Shown one piece after another: positions 5,697 to 30,700 of a DNA stretch of 41,781 bases (the stretch's first letter is position 1; each line of letters begins with the position of its first letter). The notes beneath the pieces are model-generated. The model saw only the letters and a list, made by a program, of their open reading frames with translations. It was not told the origin of the DNA and did not search any database. The position numbers and the translations under genes were made by a program. This DNA comes from a virus, in the IMG/VR virus record IMGVR_UViG_3300020421_000051, positions 1-41,781 of that record; one strand, 5' to 3'.

Positions 5697-6764
5697 TTAA
5701 ATAAGGTTAGCTAACTTCTTAAACCTATCTCTCAAATCGTTACTTTCAGTAATTACTTCTTTTTCAGATTTGGTAGACGCGACTGGCTTTGAAGCAGCTC
5801 CCTTAGATTCATTAATTTCATTTTTTCTAGAACCAAAAGACTCACCAAGTGTAGAATAAACTAACTTGACTTCTCTAAGGTTACTAGCTCTATCGAATTG
5901 CTCAACGACTTTCATCTTCTGTTCGTTATTCAAACCATACTTTCTGAATAGTTTGTTTGTAAACAAAAGTTTAGCATTTAGCAAGTTAACTTCATTTAGC
6001 TTTACACGAAGGTCCTCAATGACAGAACGATGTTCTTTAAGATCTGATTGTAGTTTTGAAACTTCATCCATTTCTTTTTCTTCATCTTCTTCTTCAGAAA
6101 GTGCTTTCAATACTTCTTCAAGATCTACATCTTCATCCATATCTTCTTTATCTTCACCTTCTTTTAGTTTTGCTTTTCCATCATTTCCGATTCCTGAAGA
6201 ATCACCGGCTTTCTTATCAAGCTTATTATCAGATTTTCCAATACCTGAAGATACATCATTTTCATCAACGGTTTCATCCATCTCTTCTTCTTCTTCTTCA
6301 TTTATTTCTGATTCTAGCTCTTTAATAACAGCTTCCAAATCAAGATCTTGATTTTCATCCATCTCTTCATCTTCTTCTTCTGTTACCTCTTCCATTTCTT
6401 CTTCTTCTTCGGATACTACAGGTGCATACTTAACACCATCGATTTCAATCACGTTTGACTCATCCATCTCATCTTCTTTTTCTTCATCCATCTCATCTTC
6501 GTCACCACGTTCTTCGAGTTCATCACCGTCACGATACATTTTAGAACGTTCTTCCATTTCATCGTCACCACGTTCCTCGAGTTCATCTTCCATCTCTTCG
6601 TTTTCCATCTCATCTTCATCTTCCATTTCTGTCTGAATCTTTTTTGATAGCATGTTCTGTAGTTTAGGTGTGAAAGCCTCTTCTAAAGCTAACTTTGCAT
6701 TTTCTAAAGCTGTTTCACGAACTGCTTTAGCGTCAGCAATTGCTTCTTTTAAGAGATCATCCAT
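5697..6764 (-). CDS. gp22: Prohead core scaffold protein, T4 gp22-like
   Basis: 355 residues, strongly acidic. It would form the internal core on which gp23 assembles and then be degraded by gp21. Residues 1-45 are helical (MDDLLKEAIADAKAV), with an LKE-A site. Residues about 45-235 are almost entirely Glu/Asp/Met (EEEEEMDE-type runs) broken by two copies of a SSGIG(K/N)(S/D) segment. Residues about 240-300 form a coiled coil (KLQSDLKEHRSVIEDLRVKL), and the C-terminus ends RDRFKKLANLI after an ITE-S site, as gp22-type scaffolds do. T4 gp22 is 269 residues, so the acidic middle is expanded. A good Shine-Dalgarno (AGGAG) precedes the ATG, and a 121-base leader with a hairpin separates it from bS21. 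Confidence 0.88.
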   Translation of the reverse strand: MDDLLKEAIADAKAVRETALENAKLALEEAFTPKLQNMLSKKIQTEMEDEDEMENEEMEDELEERGDDEMEERSKMYRDGDELEERGDEDEMDEEKEDEMDESNVIEIDGVKYAPVVSEEEEEMEEVTEEEDEEMDENQDLDLEAVIKELESEINEEEEEEMDETVDENDVSSGIGKSDNKLDKKAGDSSGIGNDGKAKLKEGEDKEDMDEDVDLEEVLKALSEEEDEEKEMDEVSKLQSDLKEHRSVIEDLRVKLNEVNLLNAKLLFTNKLFRKYGLNNEQKMKVVEQFDRASNLREVKLVYSTLGESFGSRKNEINESKGAASKPVASTKSEKEVITESNDLRDRFKKLANLI

Positions 6765-7769: not shown

Positions 7770-8675
7770 CTATTTCACAAATTTAAATGCAATTGACTGC
7801 ATTTTTAATATTGGTAATTTTGCAAATTTCTTTTTATTAGTATTGTTAATAGCGTCATATACTTGAATTATAGCAGATGCAGAAAATCCATCCATTCTCA
7901 TTTTTCTCTTTGTCACAGGATCTTTAATCACTTGATTCTGTTTATTCTTAACTACATCTCTAATTTTTGCTATGACATCCGGATCTTTTACCTCATTTAC
8001 ATTATCTTTGATTGGATTGGAGGCTTTTACTCTTGCTGAAAACTCAACAAAATATCTCTTATATAATTTCATTATCTCTAAAGCCTTCTTTCTATCCCTT
8101 TTTGCGACCTCAGTTTTTATAACATCCTTAATAATTTTATCAGCTCTATTTAACGCAATTTCAAGTTGTAATGCAATAACTTGATCTGATGTTAATTCAT
8201 CTAATCTATTTTCGTGTAAATAGTATTTTTTTCTTCTTAATAAATCGTCTGTTGATAAATCTTTATCTATGAAATCGTCTGGTGCTTCATTTACACCCTC
8301 TCTCTTCTTAAATCTATCTTTAATTCTTTGAAATAAACTTTTTGCTTTCTTATGTGTTGAGGGATCTTTTTTGGCATAAGAAGATTGTCGTGCGGTATTT
8401 ACAGAAACTTTGTTACCACTTTTTGCTTGAACCACCATTCTTTGTGCAGCAGCAATAGCAGCAGGATTTTCATTCAATATTGAATCATATAATTCTTTAA
8501 TCTTATTAGGTAACTCATCATGTTTAGTAGCTGCGTATTTCTTTACTGACTTTTTAGTCATTGATTTTGCAGCTTTCTGAGCAGCTTTTGAAAACTTACT
8601 AGCGGGTACATCACCCTTCTGTATCGACCTAACGATACCCATAAACTTTTGTTGTTGTTTGGAAGCTGCTGGCAC
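7770..8675 (-). CDS. Basic head-associated protein (DUF3008-like N-terminus)
   Basis: 301 residues starting with GTG at 8675, chosen because AGGGGA lies 7-8 bases upstream and the protein then begins MPAASKQQQKFMGIV, a start seen in DUF3008-like small phage/bacterial proteins. The protein is strongly basic. Residues 1-55 are a lysine-rich helical domain, and residues 60-130 contain two candidate gp21 sites, ILNE-NPAA and GVNE-APDD, flanking a basic segment (NTARQSSYAKKDPSTHKKAK). The C-terminal half is helical and ends in a KFAKLPILKMQSIAFKFVK tail. The gene lies directly downstream of the prohead protease gene. I infer an internal head protein that is processed, perhaps packaged with DNA because of its charge. 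No enzymatic motif is visible. Confidence 0.6.
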   Translation of the reverse strand: MPAASKQQQKFMGIVRSIQKGDVPASKFSKAAQKAAKSMTKKSVKKYAATKHDELPNKIKELYDSILNENPAAIAAAQRMVVQAKSGNKVSVNTARQSSYAKKDPSTHKKAKSLFQRIKDRFKKREGVNEAPDDFIDKDLSTDDLLRRKKYYLHENRLDELTSDQVIALQLEIALNRADKIIKDVIKTEVAKRDRKKALEIMKLYKRYFVEFSARVKASNPIKDNVNEVKDPDVIAKIRDVVKNKQNQVIKDPVTKRKMRMDGFSASAIIQVYDAINNTNKKKFAKLPILKMQSIAFKFVK

Positions 8676-8678
8676 TTT

Positions 8679-9281
8679 CTATCCCCTCATTATATCGTTG
8701 ATTACTGACTCTACCTTCCCATACTTACTATCACGAACAGGTGTGTTTTTATCAATACTTTCATTCATTGGATGAAGAAAAGCACCGTGTGTGGATGGGT
8801 TAGATACAAAATCAAAAGCAATTAATTCAAAGTCATCACCAACCTCTTGTGCACCATTCTCATTCATCGGTTCTACAGAACCCATACCACGAGAAGAAAT
8901 ACCCAATTTTATTCCGTTTTTGAATAACTCTCTCAAAATGTTACCGCTTGGCGTTGTAAGTATTTCTACTGTGCCTACTAAATCATCTCCATTAAATGCC
9001 ATCTCTGTAATATTATGAGATACATTCTGTAGGTTAACAACAGATGATTCAGGATGGTCTAACTCACCCATAGCTCTTTTCTGTTTTACGAAACCTTCGG
9101 AATACTTATTAGCCTCCCTCATTAGAATTTCTTTTGGATATACCCTACCATTTTGGTTTTTGGTATCTGCTCTTTGTAGGATACCTCTGACAACGAGTTT
9201 ACCATTGTTCTCTTTCATAGCCTCATTTATTTGGTCAGGCCCTACTTCAAATGGTAGGTAATCTACTATTAATTGTTTCAT
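8679..9281 (-). CDS. gp21: Prohead maturation protease, T4 gp21-like
   Basis: 200 residues (T4 gp21 is 212). This serine protease of the herpesvirus-assemblin-like fold digests the scaffold and trims head proteins during maturation. The family pattern is clear: GRVYPKEIL near residue 46-54, the catalytic histidine in GELDHPE (His76), and the catalytic serine in LGISSRG (Ser129 or Ser130). A DFVSNPSTHGAF stretch follows. A possible self-cleavage site QINE-A is at residue 20. The start codon overlaps the previous stop as ATGA, so it is likely translationally coupled to the acidic protein before it. Expected cleavage rule from T4 is (L/I)-x-E before a small residue; several neighbours carry such sites. 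Confidence 0.93.
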   Translation of the reverse strand: MKQLIVDYLPFEVGPDQINEAMKENNGKLVVRGILQRADTKNQNGRVYPKEILMREANKYSEGFVKQKRAMGELDHPESSVVNLQNVSHNITEMAFNGDDLVGTVEILTTPSGNILRELFKNGIKLGISSRGMGSVEPMNENGAQEVGDDFELIAFDFVSNPSTHGAFLHPMNESIDKNTPVRDSKYGKVESVINDIMRG

Positions 9282-13614: not shown

Positions 13615-15192
13615 TTATCCTAAGAGCCAATCTATTCTTTCTTTTTCACCATTAGGTCCCACTTCAATTTCCCAAGTGTCTTTATTTTCCTGTGGTGTTT
13701 GGGGTAATAATTGTGTAGAAACTCCGCTTAATGTCTTCTTCTGTAAGTCAATACCCTCTTGTCTCAATCTAAGAGCGGTATCTCTTACCCACAAACATAT
13801 AGCAAAACTCATCACTAAATCATCATTATACCCTTGCATAGCTTCGGCTTTATTGTTGTTATATATAAATACAAAAAGTTCATCAATTAATCGATTTGAA
13901 CGAACAATTACTGACTTTTCTCTAAAATATTCTTCAAGTTTAGCAATTACTAATGGTCTTGTCTTCATTGTCATTGAAAAACCAGGTACCATATTTCTAT
14001 CTTGAGTTCTATATCTATTATTAACTTGTTTTTCTGTATCAACATATTGTAAATCTTTACTTGTGTAAAAAAGGTTTTCATATCCTCTGTCTATCACCTG
14101 TTGTATTGTAGCCCAACCAATGTTATTATTTTCTATAACCAACAATGCATTGTTATACTCTGTGGCGACGTTGACTAACATATTACCAAAATCTTTTGTG
14201 GATAATCTACCTTTATATTCACCAACTTGCTCCATAGTCTCCACATCCATAACGTGAAATGCAGAGTAATCTGAGCCATCACCTCTACTTACATCCGCAG
14301 AAACTATATAATCTTTTGTATAGTTTGGTGATTGCCAAACCCAAAAATTACTATCCACTCCTCTTTTTTCCAAAGGGTTGTTTATATGAATTTCTTTATA
14401 CTCTTCTAATATAATACCATCTATCACAGTTTGACCTGAAGTAATAAAGTCACAGTCACATTCTTGAGCTGCTAATGACGGACCTAATAGTTTATCTTGT
14501 TCCTTTCTCCACTCATCATTTCTTTCTGGATGTAAGTTCCAATGTAGCTTAATCCAATTCCAATCATTTGTTCCATCTTCCGCATCAACCCAAGTTCTAT
14601 GAAACCAATTTCCAACACCATTAGGTGTAGATAGTGCAATACATTGTCCACCAGTAGATAATGTCTGTGAAGCAGCTGCCCATATCGGTTCAATCTTATC
14701 AATGAAAGCGGCCTCATCCAATATTAATAATGAAAGTGCCTCAGAACGACCAGAATCTTCTCCGCTTGAGACTGCTTTAATTTGTGAACCATTTTTGTAT
14801 CTCAGAGATAATTTATTATCTTCAACACAATTTTGTTTCAACCAAGAGGGTAGGTTAGCATGCATCACTCTTACCTTTGTCACTAAATTTTTTGCGGTAT
14901 CTTGTTTGGTAGCAATTACCAATATATTTTTATCCTGTCCAAATGTCATCATCCATAAAGAGTATCCAGCAGTTAAAGTTGATAATCCTAACTGTCTTGC
15001 TTTTAATATCACATTAAATCTATGCTCCTCAAATGTATTCAAAGTATTTTCTTGAAAATCCCACAAGTGAAATGGTACTTTACCTTTCATTGGGTGCTGT
15101 ACTACACAATACTTTTTTAAAAAGTATGATGGGTCTTGTGCACACTTTAAATATTCTTTTTTTATTACTTCTTTTAACGGAGCAGGTTTCAT
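13615..15192 (-). CDS. gp17: Terminase large subunit, T4 gp17-like
   Basis: 525 residues from ATG at 15192. I chose this start because AGGA lies 8-9 bases upstream and the ATG overlaps the previous stop as TAATG; a longer frame would need a TTG at 15228 without a better ribosome site. The ATPase domain has KARQLGLST (residues 64-72, the variant Walker A of terminases) and LLILDEAAFI (Walker B, about 155-164), followed by ALSTPNG as the coupling motif. The nuclease domain has VSADVSRGDGSDYSAF, VIENNN and GYNDDLVMSFAI carrying the acidic metal ligands. T4 gp17 is 610 residues, so this is a compact form. It powers DNA packaging and cuts the concatemer. No small terminase (gp16) gene is next to it. 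Confidence 0.95.
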   Translation of the reverse strand: MKPAPLKEVIKKEYLKCAQDPSYFLKKYCVVQHPMKGKVPFHLWDFQENTLNTFEEHRFNVILKARQLGLSTLTAGYSLWMMTFGQDKNILVIATKQDTAKNLVTKVRVMHANLPSWLKQNCVEDNKLSLRYKNGSQIKAVSSGEDSGRSEALSLLILDEAAFIDKIEPIWAAASQTLSTGGQCIALSTPNGVGNWFHRTWVDAEDGTNDWNWIKLHWNLHPERNDEWRKEQDKLLGPSLAAQECDCDFITSGQTVIDGIILEEYKEIHINNPLEKRGVDSNFWVWQSPNYTKDYIVSADVSRGDGSDYSAFHVMDVETMEQVGEYKGRLSTKDFGNMLVNVATEYNNALLVIENNNIGWATIQQVIDRGYENLFYTSKDLQYVDTEKQVNNRYRTQDRNMVPGFSMTMKTRPLVIAKLEEYFREKSVIVRSNRLIDELFVFIYNNNKAEAMQGYNDDLVMSFAICLWVRDTALRLRQEGIDLQKKTLSGVSTQLLPQTPQENKDTWEIEVGPNGEKERIDWLLG

Positions 15193-15587
15193 TATATCTT
15201 TCCTAAAATAAACCCAATACCTAACCAAAGATATGTATTTTCATACCATTTTGGTTCAAGTGTTTTAATAAGCTCTTCATTTGTCTTTTCACGTTCCTTC
15301 AATAAAGTGATTTGTTTACTCTTTGCTTCTGATAGGACTTTTTCTACTTCAGCATACTCTTCTAATTCTTCAATGAATTCATCAGTTTCAGAAAGCATAA
15401 CTTTGTAATCCTCTATCAATGAATCTGCTTTAGCTAACTTACCTTCCCATTGTGCATCACGTGCTTTTAACATTTCTAATGCTTCATCGTATGTAAATGA
15501 TGTTGGTTTCTTACCACCCTTTTTTATTTCTTGTCCATCTAATATAGATAATGCAAGAAATGCTATTAAAAAATACCTCAACATCAT
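15192..15587 (-). CDS. Small membrane protein with signal-like N-terminus, coiled coil and C-terminal TM
   Basis: 131 residues. The N-terminus MMLRYFLIAFLALSILDGQE is a hydrophobic signal-like segment. Residues about 30-110 are a charged coiled coil (LAKADSLIEDYKVMLSETDE, EYAEVEKVLSEAKSKQITLL). The last 18 residues, TYLWLGIGFILGKI with preceding WYEN, form a transmembrane segment. No cysteine and therefore no lipobox. A protein held at both ends with a coiled coil in the periplasm resembles unimolecular spanins, which fuse the inner and outer membranes at lysis; the missing lipoprotein cysteine weakens this. It is coupled to the next upstream gene by an ATGA overlap and to the terminase by TAATG. 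Other options are a holin-like or virion-internal membrane-interacting protein. Confidence 0.6.
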   Translation of the reverse strand: MMLRYFLIAFLALSILDGQEIKKGGKKPTSFTYDEALEMLKARDAQWEGKLAKADSLIEDYKVMLSETDEFIEELEEYAEVEKVLSEAKSKQITLLKEREKTNEELIKTLEPKWYENTYLWLGIGFILGKI

Positions 15588-15895
15588 TTACTCTTTGCGA
15601 ATTTTCTTAAAAATTCTTCTGCTGATTCAACTTCATCATTTTCATAAACCTCTTCCATCTTTTTAGTTTTCTTTTTAGATATAGTTAATTTTCTTTTAAT
15701 ATTTCCTATCTCTCTTTTCGATGCTTTCTTTGCGGTTTCTAATTCTTTGATTTGTTTTTCAACTTTCTTTTCTTCTTTTTTGTTTTCATCAATAACTTTT
15801 TTAAGTTTTTGAACTTCTTTACTCTTTACTTGCTTTGCAGCAAAAAGTCCACCGACTACTCCAAAAAATGCTAATATAACTTTCCAAAGCTTCAT
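15584..15895 (-). CDS. Small membrane-anchored coiled-coil protein
   Basis: 103 residues. One N-terminal transmembrane segment (LWKVILAFFGVVGGLFAA, residues 3-20) is followed by a very basic, Lys/Glu-rich coiled coil reaching to about residue 95 (KKVEKQIKELETAKKASK). This is the layout of an inner-membrane spanin (Rz-like): N-terminal anchor and periplasmic coiled coil. Both its start and its stop overlap neighbours as ATGA, so it is tightly co-translated with the second membrane protein downstream. The pair may work together at lysis, but no endolysin or holin is visible in this window, so the lysis idea stays a hypothesis. Confidence 0.6.
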   Translation of the reverse strand: MKLWKVILAFFGVVGGLFAAKQVKSKEVQKLKKVIDENKKEEKKVEKQIKELETAKKASKREIGNIKRKLTISKKKTKKMEEVYENDEVESAEEFLRKFAKSK

Positions 15896-16431: not shown

Positions 16432-19400
16432 CTATACGAATTTTAACATTCCCAAAATTTGATTAGCTGGTGCAAATGCTCCTGTGTATTTATAAAGCTT
16501 TCCTTTATAAACAAATGTAATTCCTTCGGATGGTACTACAGCATTCAAGCCACCTAAAGCTTTTAATCTATCTAATTGAACTTTTAATGTATTCAATACT
16601 TTTGGGTCTTTGGATTTTTTAACTTTATTAATTGTAGATATTAAATCTTTTCTAATTTTCTGTGCAGCCTCTGATGGATTAGCTGCTATAAAGTCACTCA
16701 TATTTTTAAGTATCTCAGCACCTAACTCAAAGAATAAAACTTCCCAATCTCTGATATGTTCTTTTTGTAACTTTGCATGATTCATTTTATCCGTACTCAA
16801 TACCCAATCTAAAAATTTAGGATAATCTTTTAAGTCTTTTCTAATTTGTGGTATCTTATATGATTTATCAAAGAATGCCCATCTCTTAGTTAGTTTCATT
16901 AATACTCTATTATCAGGATGTTTATAATCGGTTTGTTTACCACCATTATATATGTATTCCATCCAATACGCTTGATGATAGTCAGCTAAAGTATCGGTAT
17001 CTTTTAACTTATATTCACTTTGTAGTTTTTTCAACTTACCTAAAAAGTAACTCTGTCTTTTACTGAAATCTTTTACCTGTGGTAAATTTGCTACAAAAGG
17101 TTTTGTAATTGTATAAGTCTTCTGTATATCTTGATTAATTTGTTTTATCATACCGGCTAAGACGCGTGCACTTTCTCTATTCTCACCTACAGGTGAACCA
17201 AATTCATCATACTCAATTGTTCCATGAAATTGAAGTAATGATTTATCATAAGGTATGACATTAGATGTAGCAGGATACATGACCTCTAAAGACATAAATC
17301 TCTTACCTTCTCCAAATATCTTATCCTTTTGTTTTTTACTTAGACTTTTTAATGCTTTTGATAAATCATTCATCGCAGTAACAAAAGCTTTTTCAATGTC
17401 ACCTCTACCAGAAAACATATTTTTTATTCCATCAGTATCTAATGCGTTAGCACCAAAATTTTTGATATGTCCTTTGTTTCTGGCAGCGATAAGTTTATCG
17501 TTTTTCCAACTTATCATTATATTTTGTCCATCAGTTTTTTCTGTAACCGGTCCTTCTTTATCAAGTTTACCTTGTAACGTATTAATAATTAGTTTCTTAA
17601 AATCTGAAAACGTAAGTTTTTTATCATCAAATGGATGATTGAGATGTCCGTACGCACCTCCCTCTAAAAGTAATTCTTTTTTCCACCATTCTTTTGAAAA
17701 AGTTTTTTCTTCTAAAAATTCCATATTATCTAAATCTATAGTATCTAAAAAGCTACTGTCGATATCCGCACTCGCACCAGCTGCAAATACACTACCGATA
17801 ATATTATCCATAGCAGCAGATGTACCCATCCAATCTACAATTTGCCATCCTAAAGGTCCTACGACATCATTTAAATGTTTTTTATATTTATTAACGGCTT
17901 TAGTTGAGCCACTTTGCTCACCATGATCCATATAAGTAAGAGGAACTGAATTGTAATGTTTTTGTCCTGGTCTACGTCTTTTATGAATATCATTAGCTTT
18001 AGCTACATTTTCTTCCGGCTTAATAATATTATTCCTTACAACATAATCTACAATTTTCCAACCTTCCTTTTTATAAATACTTTCCAACCATTCCTTTGAT
18101 GTTTTTTCGTATGCATTCAGAGTTTGATAATATGTGGAAGGACCGTCATCAAGATTACCCTTTAAAGAATCACTATACTCAAATAAAAATTCCTTAATTA
18201 AATCATCGGATATATTAATATTTTCAAATAGTTTTTTAAATTTATTTGTCATCATATTATACACACCTTTATCAAAGTATTTGAATGTGCTTTTAAATGT
18301 TCTCTGTCTTTGTTTATCATTATATTTCGGATTACCAAGTAAATCTCTCATCTTTGTACCACTAAGATTACCTTGCTGTGGTGCTGTAAGAATGTATCCA
18401 TGATTATCAAATCCTTCTAACTTATTTTTACTTTTCAAAAAGTCTTGATAGTATGTTTTACTACCATCTTTTTTCTTACCGCCTTTTAATCTACCAGCAT
18501 CCTTCTGACCGAAAGCATATACAACAGCTGTTGTTTCAGGATTAAACTTTTTCAAAAGATTAATCGCTACATATGGTGTTTTTTCCTGTATGATTCTATT
18601 CTTAGGTATACCCATCTTTACCATATGCCTAACCTTCTCTTTAAAATCCATTGGATGTCTTGGTGGCTGTTTAATGTTAGATGTAGTTATATAAGCTTCA
18701 TCCACCTTAGATGCTAACCATTTATATGTTGCTAAATGACCAGGATGAAAAGGTTGAAATCTACCACCGAATACACCGATGGTTTTTTTAATTTCTTTCT
18801 GTTCGTTTACTTTTTTGTAACCACTACCATAAGGTACAGAGGTGTTACCTTTTTTCTTCATCTTCCTTACCATCTTACGACTTGGTGATGGTAATATACC
18901 AGCAGGTGCTCCGAACTCTTCGTTCTTAGCTTTTGTCTTCTTCTTCATCTTATTGATGTATGCTCTATAGACAGCAGCTTGAGAAGCCTTACCCATTTCT
19001 TTAGCTCTTTGTTCCATAGCAACAGCAGCTTGTATCTTATGTGCGTGAGATTTACCACTTCCGTTTATTTTACTGACAGATGCTTTAGCATCTTTTACTG
19101 TAGCAAACTTCAACCCTTTTATTGTTCCCTTTGGATTTTCATCTGTATATAAGTCTGAATGATTTGGTGAATTTCTATGCTGTCCTTTCTTACGAGGTTT
19201 TCGTGCAGCTTCCTTTACCATTCTAAACTTTAGTGCTGGTCTACCATTTATTAGTAAGTCTCCCTTATCATTATAATCAACAGACTTTACTACTACTTTT
19301 TTATTTTTGAACTTACCCATCAAAATAGTATCGCCGATTTCTACAGGTAATTTAATACTTTCAGCCATTTTTACTTTTTTCATCACAGATGGTAAATCCA

Positions 19401-20154
19401 TCTTTTTAATAGATTGTTGTTTTTTAATCCAATCTTTTGCAATTTTATTTTTAGGTGGTTTCTTCAAAAATTTATTTAATCCTTGATTAACTAACATTTT
19501 AAATTTCTTTTCTGCTTCTTTAGCTGAAAGGAATTTATTATTATCGACTATAAGAAAGTTAGAACTTCCAAATAAACCTTGAAAAAATGCAAGATTATTT
19601 TGTACATCCTGCCAACTCTTTCTCACAATAGTTTCCGGTAACGCACGATCTCTTTGTTCATTTCTTTGCATTGCAATATCTAAACTCGTATTTACAAACA
19701 CCATATATGAATCATAACCCAAATCCATTAATTTTTTTCTTTTTTCTTTAACGGATTTAAATTTATGTCCGGTCCCATCTATGATTACACCTAATCTACC
19801 CTCTGTGTATAATCTCAATCTTTCCTGACTTAAACTCTTTGCATAAGTTCTCAAACCACTATAATTATCATATCCAGGATCTGTTAACTGTTTGAATAAA
19901 TCTGCGGGCATATTATCTAAATCAACAGTACCGAAATACTTTTTTAGTAGCATCTCAAGTTCTGTATCTTGGTTTACCATTTTTAAACCTGTTTTCGATA
20001 CATTTATCTTTTCTGGTATACCAAATAGTTGTTGTGCAACATACGATTTACCACTACCAGGTCCTCCTGCCAAAAATACAGCTTTAAAGATACCTGGATC
20101 TCTAACACCTTCGGTTAAAAATGGTTTGACGAGAAATTCTGTTAGTTTATCCAT
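16432..20154 (-). CDS. Multi-enzyme protein: P-loop kinase, HxGH nucleotidyltransferase, KTDG ligase-like domain
   Basis: 1240 residues with at least three catalytic modules. (1) Residues 16-230: P-loop kinase with AGGPGSGKS (29-37), IIDGTG (124-129) and an Arg-rich lid (MQRNEQRDRALPETIVRKSW), like the polynucleotide kinase/zeta-toxin group. (2) Residues 316-450: very basic linker with HAHKIQAAVAMEQRAKEMGK. (3) Residues 456-640: nucleotidyltransferase with GVFGGRFQPFHPGH (HxGH at 470-473) and LSGTKMR (597-603), as in NMN adenylyltransferase or cytidylyltransferase. (4) Residues 655-820: unknown. (5) Residues 832-1240: TEKTDGQNIMISW (KTDG at 873-876), ARNKGH and SLEVMYP (Glu957), the pattern of covalent nucleotidyltransferases (RNA/DNA ligases). 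Sites FLTE-G (15), MVKE-A (315), KVNE-Q (451) and LLLE-G (831) fit prohead protease rules and fall at module borders. Substrates are unknown. Confidence 0.8.
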   Translation of the reverse strand: MDKLTEFLVKPFLTEGVRDPGIFKAVFLAGGPGSGKSYVAQQLFGIPEKINVSKTGLKMVNQDTELEMLLKKYFGTVDLDNMPADLFKQLTDPGYDNYSGLRTYAKSLSQERLRLYTEGRLGVIIDGTGHKFKSVKEKRKKLMDLGYDSYMVFVNTSLDIAMQRNEQRDRALPETIVRKSWQDVQNNLAFFQGLFGSSNFLIVDNNKFLSAKEAEKKFKMLVNQGLNKFLKKPPKNKIAKDWIKKQQSIKKMDLPSVMKKVKMAESIKLPVEIGDTILMGKFKNKKVVVKSVDYNDKGDLLINGRPALKFRMVKEAARKPRKKGQHRNSPNHSDLYTDENPKGTIKGLKFATVKDAKASVSKINGSGKSHAHKIQAAVAMEQRAKEMGKASQAAVYRAYINKMKKKTKAKNEEFGAPAGILPSPSRKMVRKMKKKGNTSVPYGSGYKKVNEQKEIKKTIGVFGGRFQPFHPGHLATYKWLASKVDEAYITTSNIKQPPRHPMDFKEKVRHMVKMGIPKNRIIQEKTPYVAINLLKKFNPETTAVVYAFGQKDAGRLKGGKKKDGSKTYYQDFLKSKNKLEGFDNHGYILTAPQQGNLSGTKMRDLLGNPKYNDKQRQRTFKSTFKYFDKGVYNMMTNKFKKLFENINISDDLIKEFLFEYSDSLKGNLDDGPSTYYQTLNAYEKTSKEWLESIYKKEGWKIVDYVVRNNIIKPEENVAKANDIHKRRRPGQKHYNSVPLTYMDHGEQSGSTKAVNKYKKHLNDVVGPLGWQIVDWMGTSAAMDNIIGSVFAAGASADIDSSFLDTIDLDNMEFLEEKTFSKEWWKKELLLEGGAYGHLNHPFDDKKLTFSDFKKLIINTLQGKLDKEGPVTEKTDGQNIMISWKNDKLIAARNKGHIKNFGANALDTDGIKNMFSGRGDIEKAFVTAMNDLSKALKSLSKKQKDKIFGEGKRFMSLEVMYPATSNVIPYDKSLLQFHGTIEYDEFGSPVGENRESARVLAGMIKQINQDIQKTYTITKPFVANLPQVKDFSKRQSYFLGKLKKLQSEYKLKDTDTLADYHQAYWMEYIYNGGKQTDYKHPDNRVLMKLTKRWAFFDKSYKIPQIRKDLKDYPKFLDWVLSTDKMNHAKLQKEHIRDWEVLFFELGAEILKNMSDFIAANPSEAAQKIRKDLISTINKVKKSKDPKVLNTLKVQLDRLKALGGLNAVVPSEGITFVYKGKLYKYTGAFAPANQILGMLKFV

Positions 20155-20183: not shown

Positions 20184-21788
20184 TCAAATTATTTCCATAT
20201 CCACATCTATAGAATCATAATCAACACTATAGTATCCATCGGATTCTAATATTACACTATCGTTAAATCCTAACTCTAATAAATCTTGTGCCATCACACC
20301 TTTATAAGTAGTGTTTAAATCTTCTTTATAGTTAAATAAATATATTGGTATATTCATATCACTATATCCAATTCTATCAATATTGGTTTTAAGTCTACTA
20401 TCAGAACGACCTTTTGGCGGTCCACCAGGTCCAGGAGGTGGAGGAGGTGGAGGAGGTGGAGCAGATGCTACACAGTTAACAGTCATAGTACGGAAAGCAG
20501 AACCCAATTGGAGTATAACGTTTCTGTTAAAACTTCCAGCTGACATACTACTATCTGCTTCAAACTGAAATATCATAAAAATTGTATCTCCAAAAGCTCC
20601 AGCTAGGGTTACACTATTAGTTGTTCCTTGTACATTGTCTGGTGATGGGTTACTTGTCAAACTAGCATTCCATCTAAAAACACCATTACCGCTATTACCG
20701 GTAACTGTAATTACCGGATCATACTGACCGGTAGTGTTTATTGTATTAAAATTATACTCTGCCTCTAGTACACTAGTACTTGTTCCCGTTGAGGACAATG
20801 GTGGTACAGGAATTAGTTCTGTTATTGTTGGATTGGAAGGAAAGGTAGTAATTGCAGGTAAGTGACTTATCTGTCCACCATTAAAATTTTGTGTATCACT
20901 ATATGAACCGGTATCACCACCAGTACCAACTGCTTGTATCCACCAATACTTTGTATCAAAGTTACTTAAATCATCAAATGTTTGTGATGTACCAGTTACA
21001 CCAGTAAGAGTAGTGGCCGCATTATTTATATCAGTGCTAGTTCCATACTTTATATTATAGGATGAAGCACCACCACCTGGTGCTGCCCAATGAAATCTAC
21101 CCGTAAGTTCTTCTTCTCCAGCGATACCATTAACACCATTATTATCTTGAAGTACAGACGAGGATAGTGATGTTGGAATGCTAGGAGCAGTGTATCCTCT
21201 TAGAGTATTTGAACTAACACCTGAGTTATTACTATTATCCTTACCAAACATCTCTATTAGTATATTTTGATTAGCACTAACAGAAAGAGTAGTTGTAGTA
21301 ATGGGTGGGGTAATAAAAGTATCGCTACCACCACCAACTGTAAAGTCACTATCTCCTGAACCATCTACAGTTTGAAATTTGTTAGGAGCAGTACCAGAAA
21401 AACCATTCACATTTAACGTAGTACCACTTGAACCCGCGTGTTGAGAACCATTTACATCTATAATTGTTACAAAAGTTTTAGTAGAGTTTGAAGCCTCAGT
21501 ATAGTAAAATTTTATCGTAGTGGTTGAAGGTGCAACATATCTCAAATTACTTGGAGAACCAACACCTACTTTATCATGATCGTAACTATACCATTCCGAC
21601 ATAGCGTGTGGAGTACTTTCATCTGGTCTGTTTGCTTCAGCATTAATTACATTTATTGTAGCTACAGTACCATCAGAAAGATTTGATAATGATATGTTTG
21701 TAGCAGAACCACCATCAGCATAATCATTTTCCGTTACTTCATTTGAGATTGCAAGTAAAGATAATGGACCAGTACTAGGAACTGCCAT
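20184..21788 (-). CDS. Fibre-like protein with C-terminal S74 chaperone domain
   Basis: 534 residues. The N-terminus MAVPSTGPLSLLAISNEV and a following DHDKVGVGSPSNL form a short attachment region. Residues about 100-300 contain two fibronectin-III-like beta units (APSIPTSLSS, WAAPGGGASSYNIKYGTST). A further beta domain leads to a proline run of nine followed by GPGGPP near residue 450. The C-terminus begins RSDSRLKTNIDRIGY: Ser462 and Lys467 fit the SD-x-x-x-K self-cleavage dyad of Peptidase_S74 intramolecular chaperones, which trimerise fibres and then cut themselves off. At 73 residues this chaperone is short. Start overlaps the giant fibre gene by 14 bases, so the two are probably made together and may share a tail structure. 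Confidence 0.8.
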   Translation of the reverse strand: MAVPSTGPLSLLAISNEVTENDYADGGSATNISLSNLSDGTVATINVINAEANRPDESTPHAMSEWYSYDHDKVGVGSPSNLRYVAPSTTTIKFYYTEASNSTKTFVTIIDVNGSQHAGSSGTTLNVNGFSGTAPNKFQTVDGSGDSDFTVGGGSDTFITPPITTTTLSVSANQNILIEMFGKDNSNNSGVSSNTLRGYTAPSIPTSLSSSVLQDNNGVNGIAGEEELTGRFHWAAPGGGASSYNIKYGTSTDINNAATTLTGVTGTSQTFDDLSNFDTKYWWIQAVGTGGDTGSYSDTQNFNGGQISHLPAITTFPSNPTITELIPVPPLSSTGTSTSVLEAEYNFNTINTTGQYDPVITVTGNSGNGVFRWNASLTSNPSPDNVQGTTNSVTLAGAFGDTIFMIFQFEADSSMSAGSFNRNVILQLGSAFRTMTVNCVASAPPPPPPPPPGPGGPPKGRSDSRLKTNIDRIGYSDMNIPIYLFNYKEDLNTTYKGVMAQDLLELGFNDSVILESDGYYSVDYDSIDVDMEII

Positions 21789-24700
21789 TTTTCAACTCCT
21801 TTACTTCAGACTTTAAATCTTCTATTTGCTTTTGTTGTTCTTTCATACCCTCAATTAGTAAACCAACCATCTTTTCATACCTTACTCCTTTGTAACCATC
21901 TTCTCTATCTTTTACAACTTCAGGCATTACCTTTTCTATATCTTGTGCAATTACACCAACATCATGTCCTTCATACTCATGTATATCTTCATTTCCTTCT
22001 TTCCAATCAAACTCCACACCTCTGATTTGCTTAACCTTTTCAATTGGATTTTTAATTAATTCTATATTTTCTTTCAACCTTTTATCGGAAGAGTGAAATG
22101 CTGTAACATCACCGGTAGCAGTTAGAGCACCAAAAACATCTACACCAGCAGTATCTACTTGAAATCTTTTTGTACCACTTACAGCTATTTGAATTTTGTA
22201 GGCTGCATCTGAAAATATTCCAGTATCATCTCTTCCATTGCCATGAATTACAGATCCTTGACTACTTATCCCACCATTAAAAATAATAGCAGGAGTTGAT
22301 TCATTATTGTACTGACTACCACCTACACTAATTCTAGATGGAGTAATCATACCATAATCTGCCTGTGAACTATGTCCTCTTGATGATGATAAGAAAGCAC
22401 CTGCAATTGTCATTGCATTAGTACTATTATCACCCAAACCTTCACCTATTATACCATATATCTGGTCACCTTCATCTAAAGCACTAGTGCTACCTTGTGT
22501 TACTGCTGAAAATTTTGCTGTTGAAGTTTTACCAAAGTTTCTTTTGTTATGAACCAATATATTATTTGCAAAGTAGTTTTCGTTTTTAACTACATGAAAG
22601 TTGTAAGTGTGTATTTCATCTGTTACTTTAGTTACGGACTTAATTTTAGTCTCAATACCTTCGGATGTTAAACCTATATCTCCAACTGAAAGCTGTTCTA
22701 CTTCTAGTTTATACTTCTTATATGTTTCTATAGGATCGTAAGAAGCATAACCTTTTCCAACTACCCAATAAGGATTTGTGAATGTGTTATGATTTATTAT
22801 TCCATTTTCAAATTCAATTATAATGGTATAATCATCATCTTCTCCAGTGTGAATAGTATCGTAAGCATATGCCACTTCTTCAGATATAATTTGATTTGAA
22901 ACAACGTCATAAGTTTTTACTAAATCACCCACAACTATATCTTCAATGTTTTTAGTTGAGCCATTAGCCATTAGTATTTGTGTTCCAGCGATAAAACAAT
23001 CAGATTCGACAGGTCGATCAAATGCACTTGATAAAGTTACACCTGCTATAGAACTTAAAGTTGAATTAGAACTATCGGCACCAGTTCCAAGATTAAAGTC
23101 TGTTGTAATCTCAACAAAAGCGTTACTAGCAGTTATAGAGGCAAAACTAGACCCTCCTAGCATATCAAAAGCAGCTTCATTTGCAGCTGCTGGAACTGAG
23201 TTTCTTGCGATAACCATACCAGGTGTAGTACCACCGGTTTGATGTAGTACAAATCTGGAATTAGTACCAGCAATCATTTCTATACCACTACCAGTTATAG
23301 AAGTTGCAGTAAGACCAAATCCACCAATAGCACCAGCACCTGCAGTCACAGTACCTGTCATACTGACATCACCATTTGCAGCAATTGTTACGTTTTGAGT
23401 ATTTGATGTACCAAGTGTTATTGCACCTGATGATATTCTAAGAGCACTTTTATCTGTTGCACTATTTCCAATTATTATACTTGAACCAAAATCTGATACA
23501 ACAACTCCACCTTGCACAACACTAAAACTATCGGCATCCATTTGTACATAATCATCGGAAGCACCACCGTAAACTTTTACACCATTTGAATCTATGTTTA
23601 CATATTCATTGTTACTTGTATTACCAATGGTGGTTGTAGCACCAAAAGCAGCTTGTGTCACACCAGCTGCAACAACATCGACACCATCTGATTTTACATC
23701 CACATAATCATCTACAGCAGCACCATATATTCTAGCACCAGCTCCATGTAAACTTATGTTACCTATCACAGCACTTGGAGTATTTGCTGACGAAGGACCT
23801 GTAGCACCCTTTCCAATATTTATACCATCGCTTGTTATGTGTAATGTTCTTACACTAAAGTCTGAACCACCATAGAGAGAAATTTCATCTGTAAATTTAG
23901 CCGACCTATTACTAGCATGACCTGAATGGATATAGAAACCATCAGATGCTATCTTAACAAAATCTGTATTATTATCAAATACAAAAATACCAGTACTTGG
24001 ATCTATTCGAATAACATCATCGGTAGTACTTACCGATACATCAGCACCTGTAGTACCACCAAGTGCAATTTTACCCGTATTATCTATAGCCACTCTTTTG
24101 TAAGCTGTACCAGATATCTTACCTGAGTACATCGATATCGCAGTAGAGGAAATTTCAGTTCTAGCATCTGCTGCTAAACCAATTCTTGTTGTAGTGCCAT
24201 ATGATGCGAGACTTGTACCAGCACCTGTGTTCAATGACATTCCATCTGATGTCAGCGATACCTGAGTAGACATATTTCCTGATGCTTCTGTTAAACCTGC
24301 GACATCTGATGCAACAGAACCACTCAATGTACTTACATCTGAAGGTGTAGCAAATCCCGTACCGCTTGTTATGGTTATCTGACCTGAAACTGATAGGGAA
24401 TTACCATCCCATACTAATTTATCACCAAGTGAAAATCTTCCACCACTATCCATAAAGAATGGTGTATTACCATCACCATGTGTGCCTGTACCACTAAACA
24501 TTGAACCGGTAGCTAATGTAGTACCACCTATCTTACCACCTTTAAGTAATACAGTAGAACCTGTAATCTGTCCATTGCTTCTTAGTATAAGATTACTATT
24601 TGAACTACTGACGGTAGTAGCACTTATTCCAAATCCACCTATTGCACCAGCAGTAGCTGTAACAGTACCAGTTAGTGTTGCACTGGTTGCAGTCATATTA

Positions 24701-27700
24701 CCGCTTGCATCTAATGAGAAATTACCGGCATTAACTGTAAAATGATTTCCATCAAATTTTATAAATTTAGAAGCATTTCCTACATTAAATTTTGCAACAC
24801 CACCATCCAATCCTAAGAAACCACCTGCAGTATTATCTCCAAAACTTGTCTTTTTAACATATAGTCCTTCTGCATTTCCTGTAGATATTAATGCGACATC
24901 ATTTTTAGAAAACGAAGTTGTTGAAATTGTCCACCCAGCAATTTGATTTGATGCACCTAATGAAACTAACAATTGAGGGGTAGAGTTGTATATTTCTAAA
25001 TTTGTACCGTCAAATTGTAGCCTTTGTGCACCAGCTTTACCAACTCTAAAGTTATTTGTTGCTGCAGATGATAAGAAAAATCCATCACCTGTTGTAAAGT
25101 TTGTTGCACTTCTTATTTGTGGAGTGCCACTATTATTTTCTATAGCAATAGCACCATCACCTAATGTTATAGATTTAGCATTAGAATCAATTACTACATC
25201 TGTAGATTTTTTTATACTATTGGTGGATATTTCCCAACCAGCTGCTGTTAGAGTATTATTGATAAATGAAAAATTTGCACCAACAAAGAATGTTGGAGTA
25301 GCAGAAGCACTTACATAGAATAAATTACTTTGTGCTGTCGCGTGTGTTTGATGAGCATTAGCTCCAAGAGCAATTGTGGCTTGGTTTCCATCTATTCTAG
25401 CAACTGTTCCACTCTTTAACTGACCAGGCACTAACTCCCAACCCGCAAGTTTCGCTTTATTTGCAGTTATCAGTATAGAAGCACTATCTTGACTACCCGA
25501 AACAGTTCCACTTCCACTAAATACAGCAAATCCATATGGAGTTTGGTCAGTTCCATCGTGTAATGGTAATTTACCTAATACTAATTTAGGTTGAGCTTCA
25601 TTTACACTACCAGTCCAAATCGTTAACGATTGTGATATAGAACTTAATCTAACACTACCAAAAGTATTATCACTTTGAATATTACCAGGTACTAAATCCC
25701 ATCCAGCAAGTTTTGCCTTATCTCTTGTTATCAAAACATTATATGTTAAATCATTTGTTATGTCAGCATCAACTGTACCTGTAAACACACCGAAACCATA
25801 TCTGTCATCAGAAGAACTACCATTCACTCTTGGTAACTTTCCAACAACAACCTTTGGTCTTGCATTGTCAATGGAGCCTGTAAAAATCATTAAGGATTGA
25901 CTGTTTGAAGATAATGCTACACTACCATCTTGATTATCTGATTTGATTGCACCTGGCATAATATCCCAACCAGCAATCATATTAGCACCTTCACCTAGTT
26001 CAACTAAACGATTCTCATCGTTAGTCGCAGCACCATCAAATATCTTCAATCCATAAACAGTACCACCATCAACCTCACCTAAGTAAATTCTATCAGCAGT
26101 ACCATCAGTAATCGTAATTCTTTTTGCAGATGCATCTAACGTAATGATTCCCTCTGAACTACTGATTGCAGTATTACCTATACCCCAAGTACCTATGTTA
26201 CCAGTTTTTGCATTTATTGCACCCTCGAGATAAGCAGAACCTGATGCCCATAATCCAAACTGATTCGATAAAGTTCCAAATCTTGGAGATGTGATACCTG
26301 CAAGATTACCCATACGAACAACTGCAGAACCACTTGCGGCATTTACATCAACAAAAGGACTGTTAGGTGATGATGCATCAATTGCAACCGTACCACCACT
26401 AATTCTTGCAGCAGTACCACCAACGTTTAAATTACTTAGATTACCAGCAACATTATCGACATTATATTGTGTAAAACCACTCTGAACTGAACCACCTGTT
26501 ATTGGACTTCCGTTGATTTGAAATCTTACCGCATTTATTGTTCCATTATCTTGTGCGTCTTTGAATAGTAGAATTTGGTCATCACTAAATGTAGCAGACT
26601 TATCATCCTCAAATGTTACTGTACCCGTACCTGTTGTACCGGTTGAGCCTGATATAACACCGCTATCTGAAATAAATAAAATACCATTAGTCGCTTTAAC
26701 AACATCCTTTTGAAAGATATGTGTTCTTAATGTATTTCTAACAACAATATTATCAATTTCTAACAAAGTTCCATCACTACCATTATCATCTATTCTAAAT
26801 CCATCACCGGTTATACCTGATATAAAAGTTGAAGTACCTAAAGTCTTTGTATCTGAAAGAGCAAAGTCTTGATGGGAAGTTGTTATGGTATTACCTAAAG
26901 TTAGTTTATTTGTACCAGCTCTTTGTAATACTAAGTCTTCATCGTATGATGATACTAGTCCGGAATCTACAATTACTTTTTTATTAAAATAGAATTGTGT
27001 CCTATCAGTTTCAATATGTGCATAACTGGTATTTTGTGGTCCTATTTGTATATAGCCGGAATTTGTTTGAATCTTGACGGAATTTCCCCCACCTTCAAGT
27101 ATTCTTGTATTAGAATCAACTAGCCTTACTTCTCCAAATGTTACTGTATCTGTGGTTTCAACATCTTGATTCATTGCGAATAATTCATTTGCACCTTGTC
27201 CAGTATCTACTGTTGCAAATGTTACAGCATCACTAGTCCTAACGTTTTGGTTCATCAGATGAACTTCAGTTGCACCTTGACCAGTATCTACAGTTGTCGA
27301 AGTTAAAGCTGCTGTTTCAAGAGGTGCTGCCGTAATTGTTAAGTTTCCTGTACTAGCACCAGTTGCAGTTGTTGTACCAACTAAAAATCTATCTGCTGAT
27401 TCATCCCATACGAATATAGCATTATCACCAGTTGAACCTCTTTCAATTACTATTCCTGAATCATTTGCGTTTGAACTGGCACCGTTATTTAATTCTATTA
27501 AATTATCAGAAACTACCATATTTGTAGTAGCAACAGTTGTAGTAGTTCCATTTACTGTTAGATCACCTGTTACTGTTAGATCACCTTGAACTGCTGCATC
27601 GTCGTGAACTGTTAAATATGGATTAGTTCCGATAGTAATACTATCTGTACCACCAACACCAATGACTACTGCTGTAGCAGAATCAGTTGCTCTAATTTTA

Positions 27701-30700
27701 GGATTTCCTCCAGTATGAGAATATATCTCTAAATTTTTGTTATCACTTCTATTTTCAACTCTTATTCTAGCATGTTGGTGGGAATCAAGCATGATATTTG
27801 CATCCCAATTTGAATCATTATTTGGTGTACTATCCCCAACATACAAGAAAGGTGCACCTGCAGTTGTACTAAAAACACTTAATAAAGCTACACCGGGATT
27901 TGTGGTCCCGATGCCGACAGTGCCACCAGTAAAATAAGATGTTCCATTACTATGTATTTGTACTTTTCCAACATCTGCCTTTAATAATTGTATATAACCA
28001 TCATCAGCACTACCATTTGCTATTCTAGCAACAGCATTTACATCTCTAACTTCAATACCATCATAATCCGTTGTTGTTTCTACTACGAATTTTTTACCTG
28101 GATTTGTGGTCCCGATACCGACATTAGCAGCATTAGATATAAACATAACATTACTATTCATACCACCTGCATTATTTCCAGTATCAAATGCTAATCCACC
28201 ATTATCAATACCTTGTATTCTTCCTAAAGTTCCACCTGGATTTTGAAACGATATTAAAGCATCTTGTCCATCAGTAGTATTATATAATTTTAATACATCT
28301 TCACTATCATGGTTGAGATATAATCTATAATCACCAGGATTATCTGTTCCGATACCAACCTTGCCGTCTGCCTTAACAATCAATGCACTACTATCTACAG
28401 AAAATGCATCACCAGAACCTGCTTGATTAATTGCAAAAGCGGTATTTCCAGTTGTTGAGGTATGTGTTATTTGAGCTGTTGCAGATATATAAAATGAAGA
28501 AGCACCAGCACCAGTAAATCTAGCTAAATTTCCTGATGTTTTTGTTACAAGTAGGTCTCCATTTACATCTAATTTGTATGTAGGAGTTGATCTTCCGATG
28601 CCAAGATTACCGCTTTCAATCAATCTCATTTTTTCTGCACCACCCAAATCTACTCTGAAATAACCAGCTGCTACATTATTGGCATCAATACTAACTTCTA
28701 AACCAGCATTACCACCACCAAATATTCTATGTTGTAAATTAGAAACATTCGAATCATTTAAAACTATTGCTGGTGACTCATCTGTTATTGTTAGGGCATG
28801 TGGGAACAAATCTGATGTTACACCACCAAGATTAAGTCCAGCAGCAGATACCAACTTTCCAAACGAACCAGTTGATTGAGCTGAACCTGAAAGTATTGTG
28901 CCATCAAATGTAAGGTTAGCTTCAGCATTCATCGCATCTGCACCAGTTGCTGTTAGAACTCTGTTATCTGAACCATTTGTCATAAAGTCTGATACATCTA
29001 CTGATATTGTATTGGTTGACACATCAATACCGCTTCCGGCACCAATGTTAATAGTTCTACTTGATTCTATTGTACCTCCACCAGATAATCCTGATCCTGC
29101 GATAATCTCTACACCGCTATGATCTATGTGTTCATTGGCTACAAACCCACTTAAATTATCATGAACTATTTCAGAGTCAGTCGTTGTTATATTATCAGCA
29201 TTTGCTGTTATTCCTGTACCACCTATAACATTTAGTGTTACATCACCAGAACCACCTCCGGTTAATCCACTTCCAGCTGTAATAGTTTGGTCAGCTGTTG
29301 CGCTCGATTCTATTGCATTAAGCTTTGAATGGTCTGCATCTGTAAAAACATTTGAGTCAGAAGCAGCCTCAACAGCAGCTCTAATTTCTGCATTGCTTTG
29401 GTCAGCAGTAGCACCAGATTCTATTCCATCTAGTTTTGAACCATCGGTAGCTACATCTCTTCCATCCACATTACCTGTAACAGTTATGTTTCCTGCAACA
29501 TCTAAACCAGAACCGACATCTAAGTTAGCAGCAACATTAACACCACCGCCAGTAGCATCGATTGTTATTGGAGAACCACCATATGCTGTAGATTTGATTT
29601 CAAAGACATTACTATTACTGTTGAATATCTGCCACTTTTCTGCTGTACCTGCACCACCACCTAAGAATTCTAAATATTTACCCTTCGGAACTTGTATCCT
29701 ACCAAATGATGCAGTAGTAGTTGAAGAACCACTTACCTTTCCATTAGCGTAGGGAAATTCTACAGGTCCAAAATGAAATATTGCTTTACCACCATTGAAT
29801 TGAGTAAAAAGATGATTTCCACTAGAATCAGTTAATGTAGTATTTTCTGTACTATTAGACCCATCAGAACCTTTAACTTCTAATTTTGCATTTGGAGTTG
29901 TAAGTCCGATGCCAATTTTATCATTTGCACCATCAAGAAAAAATAAGTTTGCGTCATTATTACTTTCCATCCTAACATTTATAACTACACCTTCTTCATT
30001 GAAAGTTATTTCATTTGTGGTGTCTTCAGTAATATCTATAAAATTAACACCACCTGCTTGAATGTTTATATCGTCATTTGTAAAATTAATAAATGTATCG
30101 GTATCACCTATATGAAATATTTTTCTAGTAACACCTAAATCATTTCCATCAAATGTAAGACCACTCTCAGCATTCATCGCATCGGCACCAGTTGCAGTCA
30201 ATACTCTATTATCAACGCCGTTTGATAAAAAGTCTGAGACATCTACGGTATATGTGACTGTATCTGTTGCACTTACTGCAACATCAAGTCCAGTACCAGC
30301 TGCAAAAGTTATAGTATTGGAATCTGCTACCAGTTCTGTAGTTGCACCATCTGAAATATTAAAACTATTCATTGAACCAGCAGAACCCGATAGTATACCA
30401 GCACCTAAATCTCTAATCGCATTTGCAGAAAGTGAACCTGAAATACCTACTCTTGTTAGACTTCTTATCAATGCAGCATTACTACCAAGTGAACCACTTA
30501 TGCCTGTTCTGGTAAGTGTTCTTATAACAGATGCATTTGCCCCTAATGAACCACTTATTCCTGCTCTAGCCAATGTTCTTATAACAGCTGCATTTGAACC
30601 AAGTGAACCACTAATAGTATCTCTGTTTAAACTTCTAATTACATCTGCGTTTGTACCTAATGAACCACTTATAGCTATTCTAGCATTAGAACCAAATAAA

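Follow-up and report, generated by a model that had tools for sequence, protein, structure and literature searches.

The locus and its long minus-strand gene

What is encoded by the long gene beside the large terminase of this T4-like virus? The window, by which we mean the whole stretch of DNA analysed, is IMG/VR record IMGVR_UViG_3300020421_000051, a linear virus record of 41.8 kb with T4-type head genes; all of its features described below lie on the minus strand. The gene in question is a single intact open reading frame (ORF) at positions 16432-20154, which begins with an ATG at 20154, runs for 1240 codons and ends with a stop at 16432-16434. The plus-strand reading of the same interval is full of stops, and full-length homologs occur at many loci. 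The source is a marine virus of bacteria in which one long protein joins polynucleotide kinase, nicotinamide adenine dinucleotide (NAD)-synthase-like and RNA-ligase-like enzymes. The head and tail genes of the window include a gp23 capsid protein, a gp20 portal, an S77 prohead protease, the terminase and a gp15 tail-sheath stabiliser. The large terminase (PF03237) is encoded at 13615-15228, and the long gene lies just upstream of it.

We surveyed 160 homologous loci from two viral scans (the second alone gave at least 591 loci with the C-terminal module), and 80 relatives were retrieved with the C-terminal module alone, many of them as full-length proteins. Six modules were mapped on the homologous loci, which in the window protein follow one another as K, S, D, N, U and L. 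A terminase homolog lies downstream of L in 113 of the 114 testable loci, at a median gap of 1.2 kb. By terminase, the closest isolates are Microcystis phage Mel-JY01 (57%) and Flavobacterium immuto phages (54%); in the latter, the K, N and L modules were undetected near the terminase.

Three enzyme modules and their shuffled companions

The K module (residues 16-265, positions 19360-20109) is a P-loop, 5'-OH polynucleotide-kinase-like domain with a predicted cut after KMAE265. Its Pfam matches are to AAA_33 and zeta-like families (9e-9), and a profile search against solved structures placed Clostridium thermocellum Pnkp (CthPnkp) and archaeal L-seryl-tRNA(Sec) kinase (PSTK) first. The CthPnkp kinase 4gp6 is also the top Foldseek match of the K model (E 2.6e-7, template modelling score normalised to the target 0.71), and 4gp6, 4gp7 and 4mde lead a ranking of 880 matches, with zeta toxin close behind. 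The P-loop GxxGxGKS/T (GGPGSGKS at residues 30-37 in the window), the acceptor Asp D63 (VN.D) and the RN..R lid are invariant in 16 homologs, and all three motifs align with T4 PseT. By fold, K is closest to 5'-OH polynucleotide kinases of the Pnkp type. Zeta toxin was weighed as an identity for K: the Pfam match is real, but Pnkp ranks first by fold and the partners within the protein are repair enzymes, and we keep the toxin as a caution.

The N module (residues 452-655, positions 18190-18801) is an HxGH nucleotidyltransferase that most closely resembles nicotinamide mononucleotide (NMN) adenylyltransferases. Its Pfam match is CTP_transf_like (2e-9), the best PDB matches of its profile are archaeal NMN adenylyltransferases (E 3.5e-6), and a fold search likewise reaches an NMN adenylyltransferase. 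N also matches phrog_395, and its phage relatives are annotated as NMN adenylyltransferase. Both GRFQPxHxGH and SGTxxR are present in the window (HPGH at residues 470-473, LSGTKMR at 597-603). Across homologs SGTxxR and the second His of HxGH are invariant, and the first His varies in distant members; the form GxHH, which keeps the second His and SGTxxR, possibly marks a change of mechanism or substrate. We suggest that N may help to restore NAD or catalyse some other adenylyl transfer. A NadR-like pairing of kinase and NMN adenylyltransferase was rejected as the principal explanation because K fits Pnkp best and because K and N are separated by predicted cut sites and exchanged independently.

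The L module (residues 832-1240, positions 16435-17661) is a KxDG covalent nucleotidyltransferase that appears RNA-ligase-like. In an alignment of 24 diverse sequences, down to 36% identity, residues K873-x-D875-G876, R892, E957, E1210-G1211 and K1222 are invariant, as are the motifs KxDG, ARNKG, EG(I/V)xF and KxTG; in the window KTDG occupies residues 873-876, ARNKG 891-895 and SLEV 956-959. The structure model of L is confident (predicted local distance difference test, pLDDT, about 90), and RNA ligases make up nearly all of its best PDB matches (archaeal 2vug, fungal tRNA ligase 8rbj, T4 Rnl1 and Rnl2). Motifs III and IV are separated by a large helical insertion. Since a search of 84,980 prokaryote genomes returned L on three metagenome-assembled genome (MAG) contigs only, the family is essentially viral; the three contigs (archaeal, Flavobacteriales and Bacillus; L167, L168 and L169) are most likely misbinned phage sequence. 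Taken together, the ORF, the conserved residues and the ordered models of all three enzyme modules bear out the proposal of an earlier sequence-only reading that one chain holds three enzyme domains whose catalytic motifs are intact. That reading had named two outcomes that would count against it, motifs lying outside a nucleotidyltransferase fold and loss of the catalytic pockets; neither occurred, and instead N leads to the NMN adenylyltransferase fold and L to RNA-ligase folds.

Three further modules lie between the enzymes. S, a small beta-rich domain whose boundaries come from homolog alignments, spans residues 266-315 (19210-19359), with a predicted cut after MVKE315; D has a core at residues 316-412 and a disordered tail to KVNE451 (18802-19209); and U with its linker covers residues 656-831 (17662-18189), ending at LLLE831/GG, where the slash marks a predicted cut here and below. 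S stands before or after K depending on the phage, and D is permuted among homologs, its core being common to cyanophage proteins encoded directly upstream of the terminase (73-76% identity). U is kept by position, at 25-65% identity, and residues 768-834 are predicted to be disordered. The orders seen for K, S and D are K-S-D, S-K-D, D-S-K, S-K and K alone; modules can be missing, and extra ones inserted. In nearly every locus N precedes L and L is C-terminal, and N plus L is the minimal set, found in Mel-JY01 and its relatives.

The inserted modules of sister proteins include further enzymes. A CCA-adding tRNA nucleotidyltransferase module is present at loci L075, L077, L162 and L168, with a PolyA_pol head (E about 1e-30), an RNA-binding domain and mostly an HD domain; L061 has an HD domain without the nucleotidyltransferase, as does L070 at its truncated start. 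L155 carries a Nudix module (L155:2167-2460) within the long protein, flanked by the same predicted cut sites, and L020 and L081 carry a Pol-beta-like nucleotidyltransferase module that is sub-threshold in Pfam. Another extra module, edged by the same E/[AS] sites, is reminiscent of ADP-ribosyltransferases (ARTs) in its STS-like and EGE motifs (L017:2021-2476, L059:1-441, L020:3-365); it has no Pfam or PHROG match, and from these motifs we do not claim an ART identity. T4 Alt, a head-packaged ART, would be its precedent. Finally, we note a ParB_N match at L085:7590-8015 and a ParB-like GNTRLTGA motif at L120:3228-3965, both at or between predicted cut sites; a ParB-like identity was set aside, the match being sub-threshold only.

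Predicted cleavage sites and a common N-terminal peptide

How are the modules joined? The linkers between them are short, predicted to be disordered, and carry the motif [LIVMF]-x-E/[AGS], the signature of the T4 prohead protease for which we scanned; T4 gp21 cleaves after L/I-x-E (PMC9026906). In the window protein the junctions are FLTE15/G, KMAE265/S, MVKE315/A, KVNE451/Q, LIKE655/F and LLLE831/G, and all six lie within or beside stretches with pLDDT<50. Over all loci, the density of the motif is 2.65 per 100 residues in linkers versus 0.17 in module interiors, a 16-fold enrichment; versions of the motif in which D, Q, K or N replaces E are instead depleted 3-10 times in linkers relative to modules. 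The motif is observed in 75-100% of cases at the N-terminus-K, K-S, S-D, S-K, N-U and U-L junctions, versus 4-29% in shuffled linkers. A stricter count in 18 non-redundant, dissimilar proteins gave 54 inter-module sites versus 23 ± 5 after shuffling; its enrichment is lower because this count treats uncharacterised extra modules as linker. Digestion in silico at the motif gives the modules as separate fragments.

The same scan applied to T4 as a control recovered the gp23 site SFLTE65/A and many sites in the scaffold gp22 (eight [LI]xE/[AGS]). Similar features are found in the window, where a scaffold-like, acidic protein encoded at 5697-6764 compares with T4 gp22 and has seven [LIVMF]xE/[AGS] sites, and a gp23-type major capsid protein (4018-5682; PF07068, E 6e-74) has LIKE62/A near the T4 cleavage position. 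The predicted processing enzyme, a prohead core protease of the T4 gp21 type (Peptidase_S77, PF03420, E 4e-27), is encoded in the same gene cluster at 8679-9281.

The first 15 residues of the long protein (MDKLTEFLVKPFLTE, positions 20110-20154) form a predicted head-targeting propeptide that would be cut at FLTE15/G. The N-terminal sequence M[DN]KLT[EK][WFY]L.[KE]PFL.E is common to proteins that start with a K, S or N module, and [LIVMF]xE precedes the first module in all 64 complete N-termini. This tag mirrors the T4 capsid-targeting sequence (PMC9026906). Modules encoded apart are tagged as well. L113 encodes the kinase by itself (MDILLE/GVNDPG), and its N-U-L gene, also separate, has its own tag; in L086 the L module is stand-alone and tagged; and in LR756500 a stand-alone L carries the tag MKFLKSYEEFLNENLILE, with a predicted cut before GG. 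Tagged kinases by the same rule are found in Pelagibacter phage HTVC008M (MIPFILKE/GLYDPG) and Methylophilales phage Melnitz (MKTFAELQE/GVYDPN). We draw the separate-gene case from L113 and not from L010 and L034, whose split ORFs were rejected as natural gene splits: they lack an N-terminal tag of their own and may be frameshift or assembly errors.

A candidate head-packaged repair cargo

We propose that the long gene encodes a head-packaged cargo polyprotein that is cut in the prohead into separate enzymes, which are ejected with the DNA and repair RNA, probably tRNA, that the host has cleaved; we hold this with moderate confidence. In the mechanism that we infer, from packaging, cleavage and ejection to substrates, activities and anti-defence role, the chain would be directed into the prohead core by its first about 15 residues, which would serve as a capsid-targeting propeptide. 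There the gp21-type S77 protease would cut after (L/I/V/M/F)-x-E in the disordered linkers and yield about six products, among them a 5'-OH polynucleotide kinase of 28 kDa, two small domains, an NMN-adenylyltransferase-like enzyme of 24 kDa and an RNA-ligase-like enzyme of 47 kDa. The released proteins would stay in the head and leave with the DNA at ejection, so that repair would begin before phage gene expression. The kinase would restore 5'-phosphates, the ligase would seal RNA, most likely tRNA, cut by host defence nucleases, and the part of the adenylyltransferase would be to replenish NAD or a related dinucleotide. A kinase and an RNA-ligase-like enzyme in one chain, together with the CCA-adding and HD modules of sister proteins, argue for RNA repair, especially of tRNA. 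The sequence-only reading had left RNA repair, capping and an NAD-linked role side by side; of these, we favour RNA repair, given the CCA-adding, HD and Pol-beta-like modules of sister polyproteins. CthPnkp, the best fold match of K, is an RNA-repair kinase. Capping gained no specific support, and an NAD role is possible for N.

Several observations weigh against this proposal. Zeta toxins belong to the same P-loop kinase type as K, and in N the HxGH motif is replaced by GxHH (GPHH or GIHH) in L082, L113, L147 and L155. Sequence comparison did not by itself identify L as a ligase: L has no Pfam match and no PDB profile match, hhalign gave no match to T4 Rnl1, and against T4 Rnl2 it aligned motif I (EKxxGxN) and ARNKG/AKRTG at a probability of 2.5%. 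The assignment came from the structure model, whose Foldseek matches are weak (E 3e-3 at best, with low global template modelling scores), partly because of the large helical insertion. With fold matches weak and sequence matches absent or at that low probability, we call L RNA-ligase-like from its fold and motifs only. The strict cleavage motif is absent from the D-N linker (KVNE followed by Q or N) and from some U-L linkers (LLLMGG), and two strict motifs fall within folded modules, at 486 and 949. Lastly, no 3'-phosphatase or 2',3'-cyclic phosphodiesterase was recognised in the polyprotein, in which a Pfam scan found no HAD or metallophosphoesterase match that could supply K with a linked 3'-phosphatase. 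Classical repair of ribotoxin breaks needs these activities; the window covers only part of the genome.

A packaged and cleaved polyprotein could also be cargo for a conflict over NAD or DNA, with N rebuilding NAD once the host has depleted it, L sealing nicks in the incoming DNA and the kinase phosphorylating DNA ends or a metabolite. The closeness of N and its annotated phage relatives to NMN adenylyltransferases fits this alternative, as do the N plus L minimal set of Mel-JY01 and its relatives, the Nudix and motif-level ART-like modules of sister proteins, and the known reconstitution of NAD by phages (PMC12774641). The fold of L, however, matches best to RNA and not DNA ligases, the kinase is nearest to Pnkp and a tRNA kinase, and the CCA-adding modules point to tRNA; we regard a conflict over NAD or DNA as unlikely, while giving it some weight.

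Another alternative is one multifunctional enzyme that is made late in infection and acts uncleaved in the cytoplasm, the Glu motifs being incidental or serving assembly. A long intact ORF is indeed kept as one gene in many phages, and fungal Trl1 is an example of a natural multidomain RNA ligase. Such a view sits poorly with the 16-fold linker enrichment of one exact motif whose control variants are depleted, with the permutation of modules, the common N-terminal peptide and the position among head genes, and with the separate tagged genes of L113 and the stand-alone tagged L of L086; we consider it improbable, and the chain is probably a precursor instead, with shuffled modules, predicted prohead-protease sites and a head-targeting peptide, an organisation that the sequence-only reading had missed. 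Less probable still, to the point of being remote, is a structural or scaffold role, in which the modules would serve to fill the core of the prohead, their enzyme folds being relics. S, D and U are without a known enzyme fold, and the T4 core protein gp22 carries the same motif in number, but relics would lose their catalytic residues, and here these stay unchanged in homologs down to 36% identity.

What precedents exist for a cleaved head cargo of this kind? The T4 internal head proteins (IPI-III and Alt) share with it a short N-terminal peptide ending in (L/I)-x-E, a gp21-type protease and a gene in the head region, and Alt is an enzyme delivered along with the DNA (PMC9026906; T4 record). 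T4 head cargo, however, is encoded as one protein per gene with terminal propeptides, whereas here serial enzymes are strung along one chain and the predicted sites fall in between. In cyanophage S-SM1, mass spectrometry detected a core 'citidylyltransferase', the T4-GC190 ortholog, in the virion (PMC3037559). Like the polyprotein, T4-GC190 has an HxGH-type nucleotidyltransferase and a head-tag-like N-terminus; its S-SM2 member starts with MKSFFQFLSE/A and belongs to phrog_395, which also matches N. We call this kinship distant because the N profile hidden Markov model does not reach T4-GC190, the connection running through phrog_395 only, and this too counts against our proposal. Similarly, cyanophage T4-GC119 has the D module, a position directly upstream of the terminase and many LxE sites. 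Both differ from the polyprotein in having no kinase or ligase module, and T4-GC119 has DUF192 and DUF6321 instead. Because T4-GC119 combines the D module and this position with LxE sites around DUF192 and DUF6321, T4-like aquatic phages may use the polyprotein design generally. We note that in the T4-GC119 proteins at L170:5989-7842 and L171:2989-5112, upstream of gp17, D, DUF192 and DUF6321 are split by LxE sites in a polyprotein-like design.

The polyprotein also resembles the polyvalent proteins of Iyer et al. 2017 (PMC5512222), which are large modular multidomain phage proteins with unrelated enzymes and predicted co-injection with DNA; it likewise carries several unrelated enzymatic domains on one phage polypeptide. 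Processing of the described polyvalent proteins is predicted to involve a zincin-like metallopeptidase (PMC5512222), whereas the signature here is that of a T4-type prohead serine protease, and no zincin peptidase, MuF or portal-type fusion domain of Pfam was found in the proteins scanned. In the part of PMC5512222 covered by a term search, polynucleotide kinase is not mentioned and RNA ligases appear solely as separate phage enzymes. With T4 Pnkp (PseT) plus Rnl1/Rnl2 and with bacterial Pnkp repair, the polyprotein shares a kinase fold and motifs and an RNA-ligase-like fold with a motif I lysine. The T4 repair enzymes are encoded by separate intracellular genes and include a 3'-phosphatase, whereas no phosphatase is recognised here, and L, unlike the T4 ligases, is unrecognisable by sequence and carries the helical insertion. 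The RNA-repair sets of jumbo phages draw on the same toolbox of polynucleotide kinase, RNA ligase, CCA-adding enzyme and Pol-beta nucleotidyltransferase but, in the available part of PMC7824862, are separate enzymes and not a cargo chain cut by a head protease.

A search of the open-licence literature found no report of this arrangement, including the serial release of enzymes by a capsid protease in phages. Serial capsid-protease release of an RNA-repair set appears undescribed, and the full reading stands a fair chance of being new in principle. The protein itself, which the sequence-only reading had put forward as part of an undescribed system, is already in databases, as are its relatives, but there bears only the label 'Cytidyltransferase-like domain-containing protein'. 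More broadly, we see an even chance that this is the phage equivalent of a virion polyprotein: that a capsid protease cutting this precursor in the maturing head provides a shuffled set of exchangeable enzymes, among them kinase, RNA ligase and CCA-adding enzyme, that arrive in the cell together with the DNA and undo tRNA-cleaving host defence before phage gene expression, and that the cassettes, bounded by the motif, give T4-like aquatic phages a general and evolvable way of loading cargo.

To our knowledge, the RNA-repair enzymes described for phages are all made once infection is under way. Such repair comes late against a host that cuts its tRNAs immediately; a head-carried kit, if our proposal is true, would act without delay. 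The segments between predicted sites would then catalogue candidate injected anti-defence proteins of aquatic T4-like phages, among them an RNA-ligase-like family that no Pfam model recognised here and that is nevertheless present at the at least 591 viral loci counted above. The question of what T4-like phages inject becomes directly testable by virion mass spectrometry.

Finally, we note the remaining neighbours of the long gene. Two overlapping small ORFs of membrane and coiled-coil character, resembling a spanin pair, lie between it and the terminase (15192-15895). On its other side, a 534-residue tail-fibre-like protein (20184-21788) has an end, beginning SDSRLKTNIDRIGYS, that looks like an intramolecular chaperone domain of the endosialidase type; this gene is rarely kept beside the polyprotein at other loci. 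A single ORF of 4336 residues (21775-34785), presumably a giant tail fibre or adhesin, adjoins. In the head region, a protein encoded at 7770-8675 starts with DUF3008, a small domain of unknown role.

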